From a bacterium (GTDB lineage Bacteria; Myxococcota; UBA727; JAUIJE01), in assembly GCA_030431455.1 (NCBI GenBank), contig JAUIJE010000003.1, positions 638,360 to 702,359 of the forward strand: DNA of 64,000 bases, given 5' to 3'. The notes beneath the pieces are model-generated. The model saw only the letters and a program-made list of their open reading frames with translations, was not told where the DNA came from and searched no databases. Made by a program: the position numbers and the translations under genes. This document shows, in pieces, positions 13,360-45,247 of the stretch. Numbering within the stretch: position 1 is the stretch's first letter; every line of letters begins with the position of its first letter.

Positions 13360-14216
13360 TGGGCACGCCACCGCCGGCGGGGGCCCCGGCCCGGCTCCTG
13401 GTGATCCCCTTTTCCCACTATTGTGAAAAGGCGCGCTGGGCCCTCGACCTGTACCGCGTGCCCTTCGTCGAGGAGCGTTTCCTGCCCGGGCAACACACCG
13501 CCGCGGTGCGCGCGGCGCTGTCCGGCGCGCGCCTCGACGGGGCCGCCGACGCCGCGGGTTCGGCCCTGAGCACCCCCGTGCTCGTCCTCGAGGACGGCAC
13601 CGTGCTCCAAGACTCCAGTTCCATTGTGGCGTGGGCGTCCCGCGTACACGGCGAAAACGCGCTCTACCCCCACCCCGACGTCGCCGCCGCCGAGCGGCGG
13701 TTTCACGATGGCCTGGGGATCTGGACTCGAAGGCTGGCGTACGGTTTTTGTTTTGGCACCCCCGCCCTGCTGCGGCGCCTCATCGCTGACAATGTATCTG
13801 GAACCAAGGCGCAGATCGCCCGCGCCGCCACCCTCGTCGCCGGTCCCCTCATCGCCCGCTACGGCGCGCTCTCCGCCGCCGACGAGACCGCCCTCATCGC
13901 CTCCATCGACCGCGAGCTCGACGAGGTGGACGCCACTTTGCAGCAACATTCCCACGTGGTGGGCGCGGCCTTCACCGCCGCGGACCTCGCGTTTGCCTGC
14001 GCGCTGGCCCCCGCCCTGTTGGTGCAACCGCACGAGGGCTGCACCGCGGTCTACCCGCCCCTCGACGTGGTGCCCACCCGGTACCGAACCCTCGCCCAAG
14101 CCTGGCGCGCCCGCCCCGCGGGGCGCCACGCCCTCGCGATGTTTGCCACGCGGCTTTCAGCCAAGCCCTCCAAGGGGCGGGGCTTTAAGCCAAGCCCTCC
14201 AGGGCCCGGGCTTTAA
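13359..14216 (+). CDS. Glutathione S-transferase-like protein with a repeat-derived C-terminus
   Basis: The gene encodes 285 residues from a GTG that overlaps the SOUL stop by one base. The N-terminal thioredoxin-like domain has FSHYCEKARWALD and STPVLVLEDGTVLQDSSSI, typical of GST glutathione-binding domains (Cys/Ser active-site region in the first helix). An all-helical C-terminal domain follows. The last 18 or so residues (from about KPSKGRGFKPSPPGPGL) are encoded by hairpin repeat units rather than by normal gene sequence, so the array has replaced or extended the natural C-terminus. Confidence 0.8.
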   Translation: MGTPPPAGAPARLLVIPFSHYCEKARWALDLYRVPFVEERFLPGQHTAAVRAALSGARLDGAADAAGSALSTPVLVLEDGTVLQDSSSIVAWASRVHGENALYPHPDVAAAERRFHDGLGIWTRRLAYGFCFGTPALLRRLIADNVSGTKAQIARAATLVAGPLIARYGALSAADETALIASIDRELDEVDATLQQHSHVVGAAFTAADLAFACALAPALLVQPHEGCTAVYPPLDVVPTRYRTLAQAWRARPAGRHALAMFATRLSAKPSKGRGFKPSPPGPGL

Positions 14217-14345
14217 GCCAACCCCTCCAAGGGGCGGGGCTTTAAGCCAAGCCCTCCAGGGCCCGGGCTTTAAGCCAAGCCCTCCAGGGCCCGGGCTTTA
14301 AGCCAACCCCTCCAAGGGGCGGGGCTTTAAGCCAAGCCCTCCAGG
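14159..14345. repeat. Array of about seven hairpin repeat units between convergent genes
   Basis: Two unit types of about 28-29 bases alternate in the order A, B, A', B, B, A', B(partial). Type A contains CCCCTCC-AAGGGG with flanking AAGCC and GGCTT; type B contains GCCCTCC-AGGGC and CCGGGCTT. Each unit can fold into a nested hairpin on either strand. The array contains the stop codons of both convergent genes: the GST-like gene reads two units before its stop, and the DUF1552 gene ends inside the last partial unit. It may act as a bidirectional terminator or be a REP-like mobile family. Confidence 0.9.
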
Positions 14346-15739
14346 GCCCCGTCACAATGTAGGGGGTGGCCGAAGGTGTTGCCCTCGACGCCCATGGCGT
14401 TCATCACGCTCACCCACAGGTTGTTGTGGGGGGCGCCGGGGTTGATGAGGTTGTCGAAGTCGAGATAGCGCCCGGTGGTGAGGGCGCCGCCGGCCGAGCC
14501 CGCGAGCACAAACGGGATCTTGTTGCGGGTGTGGGAGTTGCCCTTGCCGAGTTCGTTGCACCACACGATCAGGGTGTTGTCGAACACAGTGCCATTGCCT
14601 TCGGGGATGCTCTTGAGCTTCTCGATCAGGTAGTTGAGCTGCTGGGCGTACCAGATGTTGATGTCCCGGAGCTTGTTTTGCGCCGTGGTGTTGCTGTCGC
14701 CTTCGTGGGACAGCGCGTGGTGGCCTTCGTTGATGCCGAGCCAGGTCATGGGCACATCCCCCACCGACTTGGTCCACTGAATCGACGCCACCCGGGTGAG
14801 GTCGCAGGCCAGGGACATGGCGAGCAGGTCCATCTGCAGCTGGCCCACGAGGGGGAAGTTGTCGACCGCCAACGGATCGAGCCCCATCGCGGCGCCAAAG
14901 TCCGGGGTCATACACCCGGCCGCGGGTTGGGATTCGGACTCGAGGCGCTGCTCGATCTCGCGCACCGCGGTGAGGTGTTGGTCGAGTTTGATGCGGTCAT
15001 CGGCCCCGAGGCTGGGGTTGAGGGTGTTGAACTCGTCGATGACGAAGTCAAGCACACTCTGGCGCCGGTGGCGCAGGCGGGCGACCTCCGCGGGGTCACC
15101 GTCGAGCTCGCCGAAGATGCGATTGAACGCGGTGTTGGGGTCGTTGTCGGGGGGAATGGGCTGGCCCGCCCCCGCGTAACACATGCGCGACCACACCGTG
15201 GCCCCGAGGGTGCGGACCCCGAACTCGAGCGACGGGAACTTGGTGTTCTCCCCAATGGCATTGGCGATGTGCTGGTCGATGGAGATGCCCCCGGCCCAGC
15301 CCGCGGTGCCGCTGTCCCCGCCCCCTTCGAACAGCGTGCCCTCCTGCAGAGGCATTCCGGTGAGCAAGTGGCCCATGCCCTTTTGGTGCCCGTCCCCCGG
15401 GCCCAGCGACGTCGAGCGCTGGCGCACCCCGTCGAGGATGATGAGGTCGCTTTTGTGGTCGGCCAGCGGGTTGAGGATCGGGGTCAAGGGCCAGTCGGTC
15501 TCGGACTTGGGCCCGTCGAAGATGTTCCAGTCGAAGTAGGGCCAGAAGTCTTCTTGGCGGGTGCCGTTGGGGGTGAAGAAGATCACCAGCCGTTTGGGGT
15601 GGGCGCCCTGGGCCCGGCCGGTGCCGGAGAACAGCAGCGGGGTCGCCACCGAGAGGCCGGCCGCGCCCTTCAAGAACGAGCGACGGTCAAGCGCCGCTTG
15701 GGCCCGACGACGGGCGCGGGGGGTGCGGTGTTGGGTCAT
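14327..15739 (-). CDS. DUF1552 secreted protein with Tat signal
   Basis: The gene encodes 470 residues. The N-terminus has a twin-arginine signal (DRRSFLKGAAGLSVATPLL), so it is probably folded before export. The body matches DUF1552 by recollection of its architecture: LVIFFTPNGT near the start, SLEFGVRT, GMNEGHHALSH-like IGINEGHHALSHEGD and a C-terminal CNELGKGNSH segment. The family occurs in Planctomycetes and Myxococcota next to DUF1592 proteins, and its function is unknown. Its ATG overlaps the DUF1592 stop by four bases (ATGA). The last residues (about ALEGLA) come from the hairpin repeat array. Confidence 0.9.
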   Translation of the reverse strand: MTQHRTPRARRRAQAALDRRSFLKGAAGLSVATPLLFSGTGRAQGAHPKRLVIFFTPNGTRQEDFWPYFDWNIFDGPKSETDWPLTPILNPLADHKSDLIILDGVRQRSTSLGPGDGHQKGMGHLLTGMPLQEGTLFEGGGDSGTAGWAGGISIDQHIANAIGENTKFPSLEFGVRTLGATVWSRMCYAGAGQPIPPDNDPNTAFNRIFGELDGDPAEVARLRHRRQSVLDFVIDEFNTLNPSLGADDRIKLDQHLTAVREIEQRLESESQPAAGCMTPDFGAAMGLDPLAVDNFPLVGQLQMDLLAMSLACDLTRVASIQWTKSVGDVPMTWLGINEGHHALSHEGDSNTTAQNKLRDINIWYAQQLNYLIEKLKSIPEGNGTVFDNTLIVWCNELGKGNSHTRNKIPFVLAGSAGGALTTGRYLDFDNLINPGAPHNNLWVSVMNAMGVEGNTFGHPLHCDGALEGLA

Positions 15740-43075: not shown

Positions 43076-43819
43076 ATGGATCTGACCGGCTCTTTGCTTG
43101 CTGTCACATTGGTGCTCGTCCGGGTGGTGGGCTTTTTTATGTGGCTGCCCGTCATCGGGGGCGAGGGCGTGCCCAGCCGGGTCCGCCTCGGCTTCGGGGT
43201 CGCGGTCACCCTCGCGGTGGTCTCGTTCGTGCCCCCCCCGGCGGTCACCGACCAGCGCTTGTCCCATTTGGTCGTGGCCCTGGTCTCGGAGGTGGGGCTC
43301 GGCATCTCCGCGGGGCTGATCACCAAGATGTTCTTCCTCGCCCTCGAGGGGGCGGGCCACGCCGCGGGCAACGTCATGGGCATGGGCTTCGCCCAGACCT
43401 TCAACCCCGTCACCGGCACCCAATCCAACCCCCTGAGCAAACTCCTCACCCTCAGCGGCATGGCCTTCGCCCTCCACCAAGGTTTTCACGCTGAGGCCAT
43501 CGCCTGGCTCGCCCATTCCCTGGTGGTCTTCCCCGTGGGCGAAGCCCCCTCGTGGCTCGCGGTGTCCCAAGGCCTGGTCACCCACGCCCTCGGCAGCATC
43601 GTGCTCGCCGTCCGCCTCGGCTTCCCCGTCGTCGGCGCGGTGACATTGGGCCACATCACCCTCGGCCTCCTCGGCCGCACCGCCCCCCAGCTCAATCTCC
43701 AAGCGGTGGGCTTTTCCATCGCCGTCGTCGCCGGCGGCGTCGTCGTCTACCAATCGGTGTACGACATCGGCCGCGCCGCGGCCGAGGCGATGGTCCACGG
43801 GCTGTGGACCTTGGCGTAA
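43076..43819 (+). CDS. fliR: Flagellar export gate protein FliR
   Basis: The gene encodes 247 residues with about six hydrophobic helices and the FliR patterns FFMWLPVIGGEGVPSRVRLGFGVAV, EVGLGISAGLITKMFF and MGMGFAQTFNPVTGTQ. It completes the FliP-FliQ-FliR set. The stop is followed at once by a small hairpin and then by the duplicated flhB start, so flhB is separated by 357 bases in an operon that is otherwise tightly packed. Confidence 0.95.
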   Translation: MDLTGSLLAVTLVLVRVVGFFMWLPVIGGEGVPSRVRLGFGVAVTLAVVSFVPPPAVTDQRLSHLVVALVSEVGLGISAGLITKMFFLALEGAGHAAGNVMGMGFAQTFNPVTGTQSNPLSKLLTLSGMAFALHQGFHAEAIAWLAHSLVVFPVGEAPSWLAVSQGLVTHALGSIVLAVRLGFPVVGAVTLGHITLGLLGRTAPQLNLQAVGFSIAVVAGGVVVYQSVYDIGRAAAEAMVHGLWTLA

Positions 43820-43863
43820 AGGGGCCTCACCCCTAGATGAAGATCGTCAAACATCTGACGATC
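43820..43863 (+). terminator. Two hairpins after fliR
   Basis: AGGGG-CCTCA-CCCCT (43820-43834) starts one base after the fliR stop. GATCGTCA-AACATC-TGACGATC (43842-43863) is a perfect 8-base stem with a 6-base loop. Neither has a run of T after it, so any termination would be partial; mRNA processing or translation control for flhB is as likely. Confidence 0.45.
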
Positions 43864-43873
43864 CGCTTCAAAC

Positions 43874-43930
43874 AAACCAGGCATAGCTGATGCACACATC
43901 TCTGTGATGTCAGACGCCGACCGCGACGAC
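43874..43930 (+). repeat. Upstream copy of the flhB start region
   Basis: These 57 bases match 44144-44200 with one mismatch (43921 C against A). The repeat includes the leader hairpins GCAT-AGCTG-ATGC and CACA-TCTC-TGTG, the ATG at 43907 and the first eight codons of flhB (MSDADRDD against MSDAERDD). After it the frame runs into the hairpin element and stops at 44060-44062, giving a 51-residue decoy peptide. Confidence 0.92.
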
Positions 43931-44118
43931 GTGTCGTATGCGCCAGCATACGACACGCCGCGACGCGAGCGCAGCGAGCATGGAGCGGCGACACCGGGGA
44001 GGAGCGGCAACGCTTCGCGTTGCTCAAGCCATTCCGAAGGAATGGCCACGCGATCTCGCTGAGCTTGCGAAGCGTGAGCCGCGGAGGGGGAGGGGACCTC
44101 CCCCCAGCGGTCGGCGTC
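43913..44118. other. Multi-hairpin element bounded by 12-base inverted repeats
   Basis: The ends GACGCCGACCGC (43913-43924) and GCGGTCGGCGTC (44107-44118) are perfect inverted repeats. Inside are a stem with arm CGTGTCGTATGC and a 4-base loop (43930-43957), GCAACGC-TTC-GCGTTGC (44007-44023), GCCATTCC-GAA-GGAATGGC (44028-44046), a weaker GCTT-GCG-AAGC (44063-44073), and GGGGGAGG-GGA-CCTCCCCC (44086-44104). All loops are 3-4 bases. No long frame or transposase is present. It looks like a structured RNA or a small non-autonomous mobile element. Confidence 0.8.
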
Positions 44119-44143
44119 ACGCAAATGTCGGAAAAGACCGCAA

Positions 44144-44200
44144 AAACCAGGCATAGCTGATGCACACATCTCTGTGATGTCAGACGCCGAACGCGACGAC
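44144..44200 (+). repeat. Downstream copy that provides the working flhB start
   Basis: This is the second copy of the 57-base duplication. Its ATG at 44177 opens the full flhB gene. It carries A where copy 1 has C (44191), and this base breaks one pair of the element's inverted-repeat sequence. The repeat distance is 270 bases. Confidence 0.92.
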
Positions 44201-45247
44201 AAAACAGAAGAGCCATCTTTACAGAGACTTGACCAGCTCCGGAAAGACGGCGATGTGGCGATGTCCAAGGACATCGTCAGCGGTTTGGCGTTTGTGGCCG
44301 GGGCGCTGGCCATCATCTCCGCCGCGCCCACGGTGACCACGCAGCTCATCGGGCTGGTGCGCACGTCGATGAGCCAGGCCGGTCGGCTGCCCAAGACCGC
44401 CAAAGATGGGCTCAGCGATCTGCTCGACGCGGCCCTCATGCCGATGGGGCTGACCTTCGTGGCCGTGCTCGCGGCGGGGGCGATGGCCTTTTTCGCCACC
44501 GCGGCCCAGACCCAGATGGGGTTTTGGCCGGAGAAGCTCAAGCCGGACCCGAAGAAGATGTTTCAGGTCCAGCGGCTCACGAAGGTGTTCAAACGCGAGT
44601 TCGTCACCGACCTGCTGCTCGCGTTCCTCAAGGCGTTCGCGTTGCTCGGGCTGGTGCTGTTCTCGGTGGGGGACACCTGGCGCACCTGGCCGGGCCAGCT
44701 GTTCGCCCCCGTGGAGCACGGGCCCGCGGCGTGGTCGGCCCTGCTCGCGGGGGTGCTCCGGGGCGCCGCAGTGGCATTGGTGGCGATCGGGGGCATCGAC
44801 TACTTCGTCCAGCACCGGCGCTACATGGACAAAGCGCGCATGACCAAAGAAGAGCTCAAGCGCGAACACAAGGACAACGAGGGCGACCCCCTCATCAAGA
44901 GCCAACGCAAGCGCAAACACCGCGAAATGTCCCAAGGCCGCATCGCCGAGGACGTGCCCGGTGCGGACGTGGTCGTGGTCAACCCCACCCACATCGCCAT
45001 CGCCATCCGCTACCGGGCCGGGGTCGACCGGGCCCCCACCGTGGTGTGCAAAGGCAAAGACCACCGCGCGGACCAAATCCGCGCCACCGCGCGCGAACAC
45101 GGCGTGCCCATCGTCAAAGACATCCCTCTCGCCCGTCTTCTGTTCAAGCAGGTCAAAGTCGGCCGCGCCGTGCCCGAGGAAAGCTACCGGGCGGTGGCCG
45201 CGGTGTTGGCCTTCGTCTACCGCACCACCGGCCGCCGTCCGCAATAG
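44177..45247 (+). CDS. flhB: Flagellar export switch protein FlhB
   Basis: The gene encodes 356 residues. The DDKTEEPS start motif, four membrane helices (about 33-55, 90-112, 145-165, 185-205) and the cytoplasmic domain with the self-cleavage motif NPTH (VVVVNPTHIAIAIRYRAG) are all present. FlhB receives the hook-length signal from FliK. The GTG at 44174 is in frame one codon before the ATG, so either could be used. Only the start region is duplicated; the rest is single-copy and intact. flhA follows after 10 bases. Confidence 0.96.
   Translation: MSDAERDDKTEEPSLQRLDQLRKDGDVAMSKDIVSGLAFVAGALAIISAAPTVTTQLIGLVRTSMSQAGRLPKTAKDGLSDLLDAALMPMGLTFVAVLAAGAMAFFATAAQTQMGFWPEKLKPDPKKMFQVQRLTKVFKREFVTDLLLAFLKAFALLGLVLFSVGDTWRTWPGQLFAPVEHGPAAWSALLAGVLRGAAVALVAIGGIDYFVQHRRYMDKARMTKEELKREHKDNEGDPLIKSQRKRKHREMSQGRIAEDVPGADVVVVNPTHIAIAIRYRAGVDRAPTVVCKGKDHRADQIRATAREHGVPIVKDIPLARLLFKQVKVGRAVPEESYRAVAAVLAFVYRTTGRRPQ

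Follow-up and report, generated by a model that had tools for sequence, protein, structure and literature searches.

A multi-hairpin repeat of gene 3' ends, probably displaced into a duplicated flhB start

Results

The flhB locus

The window, i.e., the whole stretch of 64,000 nucleotides that was analysed, holds fliR (43076-43819, plus strand; ORF matching PF01311, E 3.5e-46) as the upstream operon gene of an intact flhB (44177-45247, plus strand; PF01312, E 3.3e-95). The start of flhB is present twice, as a plus-strand direct repeat of 57 nt (98% identity, spacing 270) that comprises the flhB leader, the ATG and the first eight codons. Copy 1 occupies 43874-43930 and copy 2, which is continuous with the remaining part of flhB, 44144-44200; the sole mismatch is C at 43921 versus A at 44191. 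The ATG of copy 1, at 43907, opens a plus-strand ORF of 51 codons (43907-44062), which ends inside the sequence between the copies and gave no Pfam match, and the ATG at 44177 opens flhB itself. A second FlhB/YscU-type gene, 36% identical, was found elsewhere in the genome (G000:C10:58628-59665) and perhaps belongs to another secretion system.

The copies are separated by a hairpin-rich insert of 213 nt. Nucleotides 1-176 of the insert (43931-44106) represent one member of a repeat family that is dispersed in the same genome, as seen from own-genome matches and a profile match, with the modules M1 to M6 read on the minus strand. The remaining 37 nt (44107-44143) form a tail, which starts with the right arm (44107-44118) of a perfect 12-nt inverted repeat; the left arm (43913-43924, plus strand) is located within copy 1. 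The initial annotation, made from the letters alone, had described the doubled start, the 51-residue product of the first ATG, the intact flhB behind the second and at least four tight hairpins with loops of 3-4 bases, and all of these were recovered. It had also taken the 12-base inverted repeats as the bounds of the segment. The perfect pair is indeed there, but as the boundary of a free unit it was rejected, since both arms lie outside the part common to other copies and about three comparable pairs occur per 64 kb in the window; the pair bounds the flhB insertion only. The tail is unique in the genome: neither a source for it nor, at three mismatches or fewer, a second site for 23 nt of it was found there. 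A longer duplication, in which the tail would be homologous to the 5' flank of copy 1, was rejected as not significant (p 0.13). As a weak idea, the tail may come from a donor gene, of which it would be the 3' end: when the minus strand is read, a TGA precedes M1 by 12 nt.

Two small features of the leader were recorded. An ORF of five codons, MHTSL, has a stop overlapping the flhB ATG (TGATG) in both copies (43890-43907 and 44160-44177), and translational coupling is possible. The leader sequence ATGCACACATCTC in copy 1 (43890-43902) resembles the TIR-like end of the family, GAGCACATCTC, which may be chance or a remnant.

In relatives with adjacent genes, the fliR-flhB gaps were -4, 6, 11, 12, 20, 39, 64, and 112 nt, with locus L032 excluded for its partial FlhB alignment. 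The gap here is 357 nt, or 87 nt when the 270-nt unit is subtracted, and the flhB insertion is therefore regarded as derived.

Hairpins and predicted folding

Six hairpins were assigned to the insert. M6 (43927-43960) has the stem CGACGTGTCGTATGC/GCATACGACACGCCG and a loop of 4, with compensatory changes in 5 of 7 pairs among copies, and is followed by the weaker, two-tier M5 (about 43956-43990; outer stem CGCCGC/GCGGCG), with such changes in 9 of 12 pairs. M4 (44007-44023) is the perfect hairpin GCAACGCTTCGCGTTGC with a loop of 3, found in 29 exact copies in the genome. M3 (44028-44046), GCCATTCCGAAGGAATGGC, also has a loop of 3 and shows compensatory changes in 3 of 7 pairs; M2 (about 44058-44078), GCTGAGCTTGCGAAGCGTGAG, is weaker. 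M1 (44086-44104), GGGGGAGGGGACCTCCCCC, with a loop of 3, is elsewhere mostly found 7-21 nt after a stop codon.

The RNA fold suggested in the initial annotation gave a predicted -157.7 kcal/mol for 43874-44200 (z -7.0 against dinucleotide shuffles), and a z of -8.1 for 43820-44230. Among nine full copies of the family, changes on both sides were seen in 21 of 47 predicted pairs, and 92.8% of the cells pair. The controls were far lower on all measures except the number of pair types (55 of 500 shuffles), and since the stem structure was predicted from the same nine-copy alignment, the slid controls partly favour structure. In the wobble test of the family stems, G.T and A.C mismatches were equally rare (16 and 15, respectively), and these counts give no sign of selection on the RNA strand. 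These stems would be better explained by maintenance of palindromes in the DNA, or in both strands, than by selection on one RNA strand.

A dispersed family of hairpin modules

The genome to which the window belongs (7.7 Mb in 28 contigs, 96.9% complete) was searched with the insert, as was also proposed in the initial annotation. The sequence 43931-44143 gave at least 59 matches and 43931-44106 at least 54, with the matches of other copies stopping at about 44106; the family profile matched the flhB locus at 43943-44104 (E 4e-36). The core 17-mer GCAACGCTTCGCGTTGC was found at 42 places with at most one mismatch, against one for the reversed control, and did not occur in any of 194 further genomes from the phylum. 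None of 38 relatives, the closest of which belong to the same order, had a full match to the family, and only two gave any matches, both short and weak. As far as the genomes compared can tell, the family appears specific to one lineage.

Forty clusters of the family were present in the 1.4 Mb analysed, none of them inside a predicted gene. The copies are mosaics of the six modules in fixed orientation, with variable number and order. The M3-M4 pair (about 43 nt) can be present, absent, doubled or displaced, and otherwise similar MITE-like elements (L016 and L053 versus L176 and L178) differ in its presence or absence alone, so that the pair seems to insert independently. Tandem duplications of element units are common at hairpin loci in the 1.4 Mb, with spacings of 43-260 nt, e.g., at C4:392500 (130-nt steps), in C24 (163-nt spacing) and at 114 kb of C16 (176 and 86). 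Tandem units of about 158 nt, with apparent tRNA 3' ends and family-like sequence, were also observed at the ends of contigs C6 (L098) and C2 (L101), and may be parts of one broken array.

Placement behind stop codons

Gene calls were made by a simple codon model in 1.40 Mb, comprising 60 unbiased stretches of 20 kb, the window and the copy loci, and gaps of at least 100 nt (18 convergent, 173 tandem, 119 divergent) served as background. Nineteen of the 40 clusters were placed in convergent gaps and 21 in tandem gaps; none were in divergent gaps, compared to 119 of 310 in the background (Fisher p 2e-8). M1 faces a stop codon in 29 of the 30 clusters that bear it, mostly 7-21 nt behind the stop. 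The same holds in tandem gaps alone (17 of 18 clusters; p 3e-4 in the test, which was computed for 16 of 17). The stops at M1 junctions were 18 TAG and 6 TGA, versus 55 TAG, 136 TGA, and 20 TAA in the background (n=211; p 4e-6). The junction TAG usually lies within CTAG, and the M1 side is without TIR. Terminators with a U-tract, frequent at ordinary gene ends of this genome, were not found at the M1 junctions listed. The flhB copy is the sole M1-bearing copy to face a start codon, to lie antisense within an operon and to lack both CTAG and an IS-like terminal repeat.

CTAG is a rare word in this genome: 160 sites were counted in 1.27 Mb, 71 of them stop codons. We infer that target-site preference accounts, at least in part, for the location of the family at 3' ends; a further contribution from selection or function is suggested by the one-way orientation of M1. 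The modules may terminate or protect mRNA ends, or these ends may be only a safe landing site.

A resident IS5-type insertion sequence

Two copies of an IS5-type IS, both 985 bp, were found at L184 (C16:127435-128419) and L189 (C28:26323-27307). The transposase is encoded in two frames (DUF4096 and DDE_Tnp_1) and the ends are GAGCACRTCTCAAAATCGCC-like. Both copies are bounded by CTAG and adjoin the TAG stop of a gene on at least one side. Seventeen of 25 IS-like ends adjoin CTAG or TTAG, and 12 of 25 fall exactly on a gene's TAG stop. Short elements share these ends, also at stop codons, and in many multi-hairpin copies the M6 end bears GAGCACATCCCAAAACC, a TIR-like motif that follows CTA or a variant thereof. 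At the ends of the flhB insert and elsewhere in the window the TIR GAGCACATCTCAAAATCGCC was absent at up to four mismatches, and the insert junctions have no CTAG.

Another short element, about 85-100 nt long (CTAGAGCGCATCTCAAAATC ... GACGAGCGCCCGATCGGGCGTCTCGTCGCTGGACACTAG), was noted at L175, L176, L181, L185, and L194. It has CTAG-like sites at both ends and often stands head-to-tail with the first short element.

Duplications at other loci and search for enzymes

Two other loci have family modules between direct repeats. In contig C28 (L088), 35 nt of a gene's 3' end, including the stop codon, are duplicated around 57 nt of a family module, and in contig C1 (L104), 54 nt of non-family sequence are duplicated around 106 nt with a family module. 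PF01797 gave no matches in the 96.9% complete genome, whereas control genomes were positive, and neither a Ku domain nor RVT_1 was found in it. The genome thus likely lacks RAYT, Ku and reverse transcriptase domains, as judged from an incomplete assembly. Three routes were rejected on these results: REP spread driven by RAYT (no Y1_Tnp found), capture via Ku-dependent end joining (no Ku found) and a reverse-transcribed 3'UTR (no RVT_1 found). No donor copy with more than about 84% identity over a long stretch was present in the assembly, though the two 57-nt copies are identical but for one base. The donor of the flhB insert is lost, unassembled or foreign.

Discussion

Known palindromic repeats

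REP and BIME sequences are short, dispersed, extragenic palindromes in mosaic arrays, mostly behind coding regions (PMC3733652). The family described here resembles them in all of these respects, and many extragenic copies with several modules in varying combinations, as in BIMEs, were found (40 clusters). It differs in having six different palindromes in a fixed order, head-to-tail, in its location at TAG stops and in that no RAYT was found. Neither of the two hallmarks of GTAG REPs and REPINs, a RAYT and a GTAG-tagged palindrome, was detected, and no constant GTAG tag was seen at the module flanks when M4 sites and full copies were read by eye. CGTC REPs have a CGTC tag, a stem of 8-9 bp starting with A-T pairs, a loop of 4-5 and mainly occur as HH dimers; like the present family, they are palindromes behind genes without a dedicated transposase (PMC3733652). 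M5 is flanked by CGTC, but it starts with G-C pairs and is not a CGTC REP in this sense. The position of a family hairpin close after a stop codon recalls an intrinsic terminator, but the family lacks the U-tract seen at many ordinary gene ends of this genome.

Origin of the flhB insertion

In our opinion the flhB insert is probably a displaced copy of a lineage-specific multi-hairpin repeat of gene 3' ends, inserted as a derived change with an unusually long target duplication by template switching or slippage, and tolerated as a passenger. An unusual event would have placed the family element antisense across the first flhB codons and left 57 bp of the target on either side, the right-hand copy keeping flhB whole. 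Insertion and duplication would have been one event, and this event presumably took place in association with replication, by template switching or slippage at palindromes and not by cut-and-paste transposition. Such a route is considered the most likely because the searches for RAYT, Ku and reverse transcriptase were negative. Without a duplication, insertions of this kind would break the gene and then be lost; at flhB the doubled start would have preserved an intact gene, and the element most likely persisted for this reason, as a passenger. Insertion of a structured element with target duplication was the first proposal in the initial annotation, and it agrees with the recurrence of the element in the genome, the relatives without element or layout, their short gaps and the complete start that remains; that insertion and duplication coincided is the conjectural part. 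The family normally resides immediately after stop codons, and a duplication of 57 nt is unlike the 4-bp CTAG target of the genome's IS5-type IS.

Classical transposition as a MITE, mobilised by the transposase of the resident IS5-type IS, would explain the shared ends of IS and short elements, the TIR-like M6 ends of many multi-hairpin copies and the CTAG targets at stops; E. coli IS5 duplicates a Py-T-A-Pu target that is mostly CTAG (PMC5493358). For the flhB copy we nevertheless regard it as highly improbable, since this copy lacks both recognisable ends as well as CTAG and is flanked by 57 bp instead of a 4-bp Py-T-A-Pu duplication. A two-step history was given somewhat more weight, though it is still unlikely. 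In such a history, slippage would first have doubled the leader in tandem (or a unit of element plus leader would have been doubled, with loss of the first element), and arrival or trimming of the element would have come afterwards. Hairpin loci often show tandem duplications, as in C4, C24, and C16, but at least two independent events are needed, one of them exactly at the junction, and the arrangement of an element between two copies of its flank at two other loci is more easily obtained as a single event.

The initial annotation had also offered a regulatory RNA or attenuator that sets the FlhB level, i.e., a functional leader in which the hairpins and the 51-codon ORF attenuate flhB translation or couple to it. 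The strong predicted folding (z -7 to -8), the overlap of MHTSL with the flhB ATG in both copies and a position suitable for 5' control speak for such a leader. Structure and sequence, however, come from a family that occupies 3' ends elsewhere and is antisense at flhB, the similar G.T and A.C counts show no strand preference, and the layout is absent from the relatives. Moreover, Rfam gave no match above the gathering score in the window or in eight family loci, no intrinsic terminator (G+C-rich hairpin with a T-run) was found on either strand of 43750-44300, and the scan for sigma-70 promoters revealed no promoter-like site at the insert. A functional leader is accordingly judged very unlikely, and a dedicated flhB attenuator is unlikely, while it is possible that the element alters the FlhB level, as far as can be read from the sequence.

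Where direct repeats enclose palindromes, precise deletions arise readily, and an excision switch is therefore conceivable. Slippage between the 57-bp repeats would remove exactly 270 bp and restore a single leader, and the cells of a population might then differ in flhB expression and motility. More broadly, a new palindromic element would be spreading without a dedicated transposase and with long target duplications of variable length. We hold this as a speculative idea and a rather improbable one.

The displaced copy at flhB offers a clear case in which a hairpin repeat of 3' ends has relocated to the start of a gene, and the gene survived because its start was doubled. The rarity of CTAG as a target, with 71 of 160 sites being stop codons, gives a simple reason for repeats to cluster behind genes. 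With duplications of 57, 54, and 35 nt around palindromes, in a genome that yielded no RAYT, Ku or reverse transcriptase, REP-like spread by replication errors would become testable.

One other direct repeat was recorded in the window, at 14152-14349. It is 56 nt long, with 96% identity and 86 nt between the copies, and is located at a gene edge with the hairpin-like sequence GGCTTTCAGCCAAGCC.
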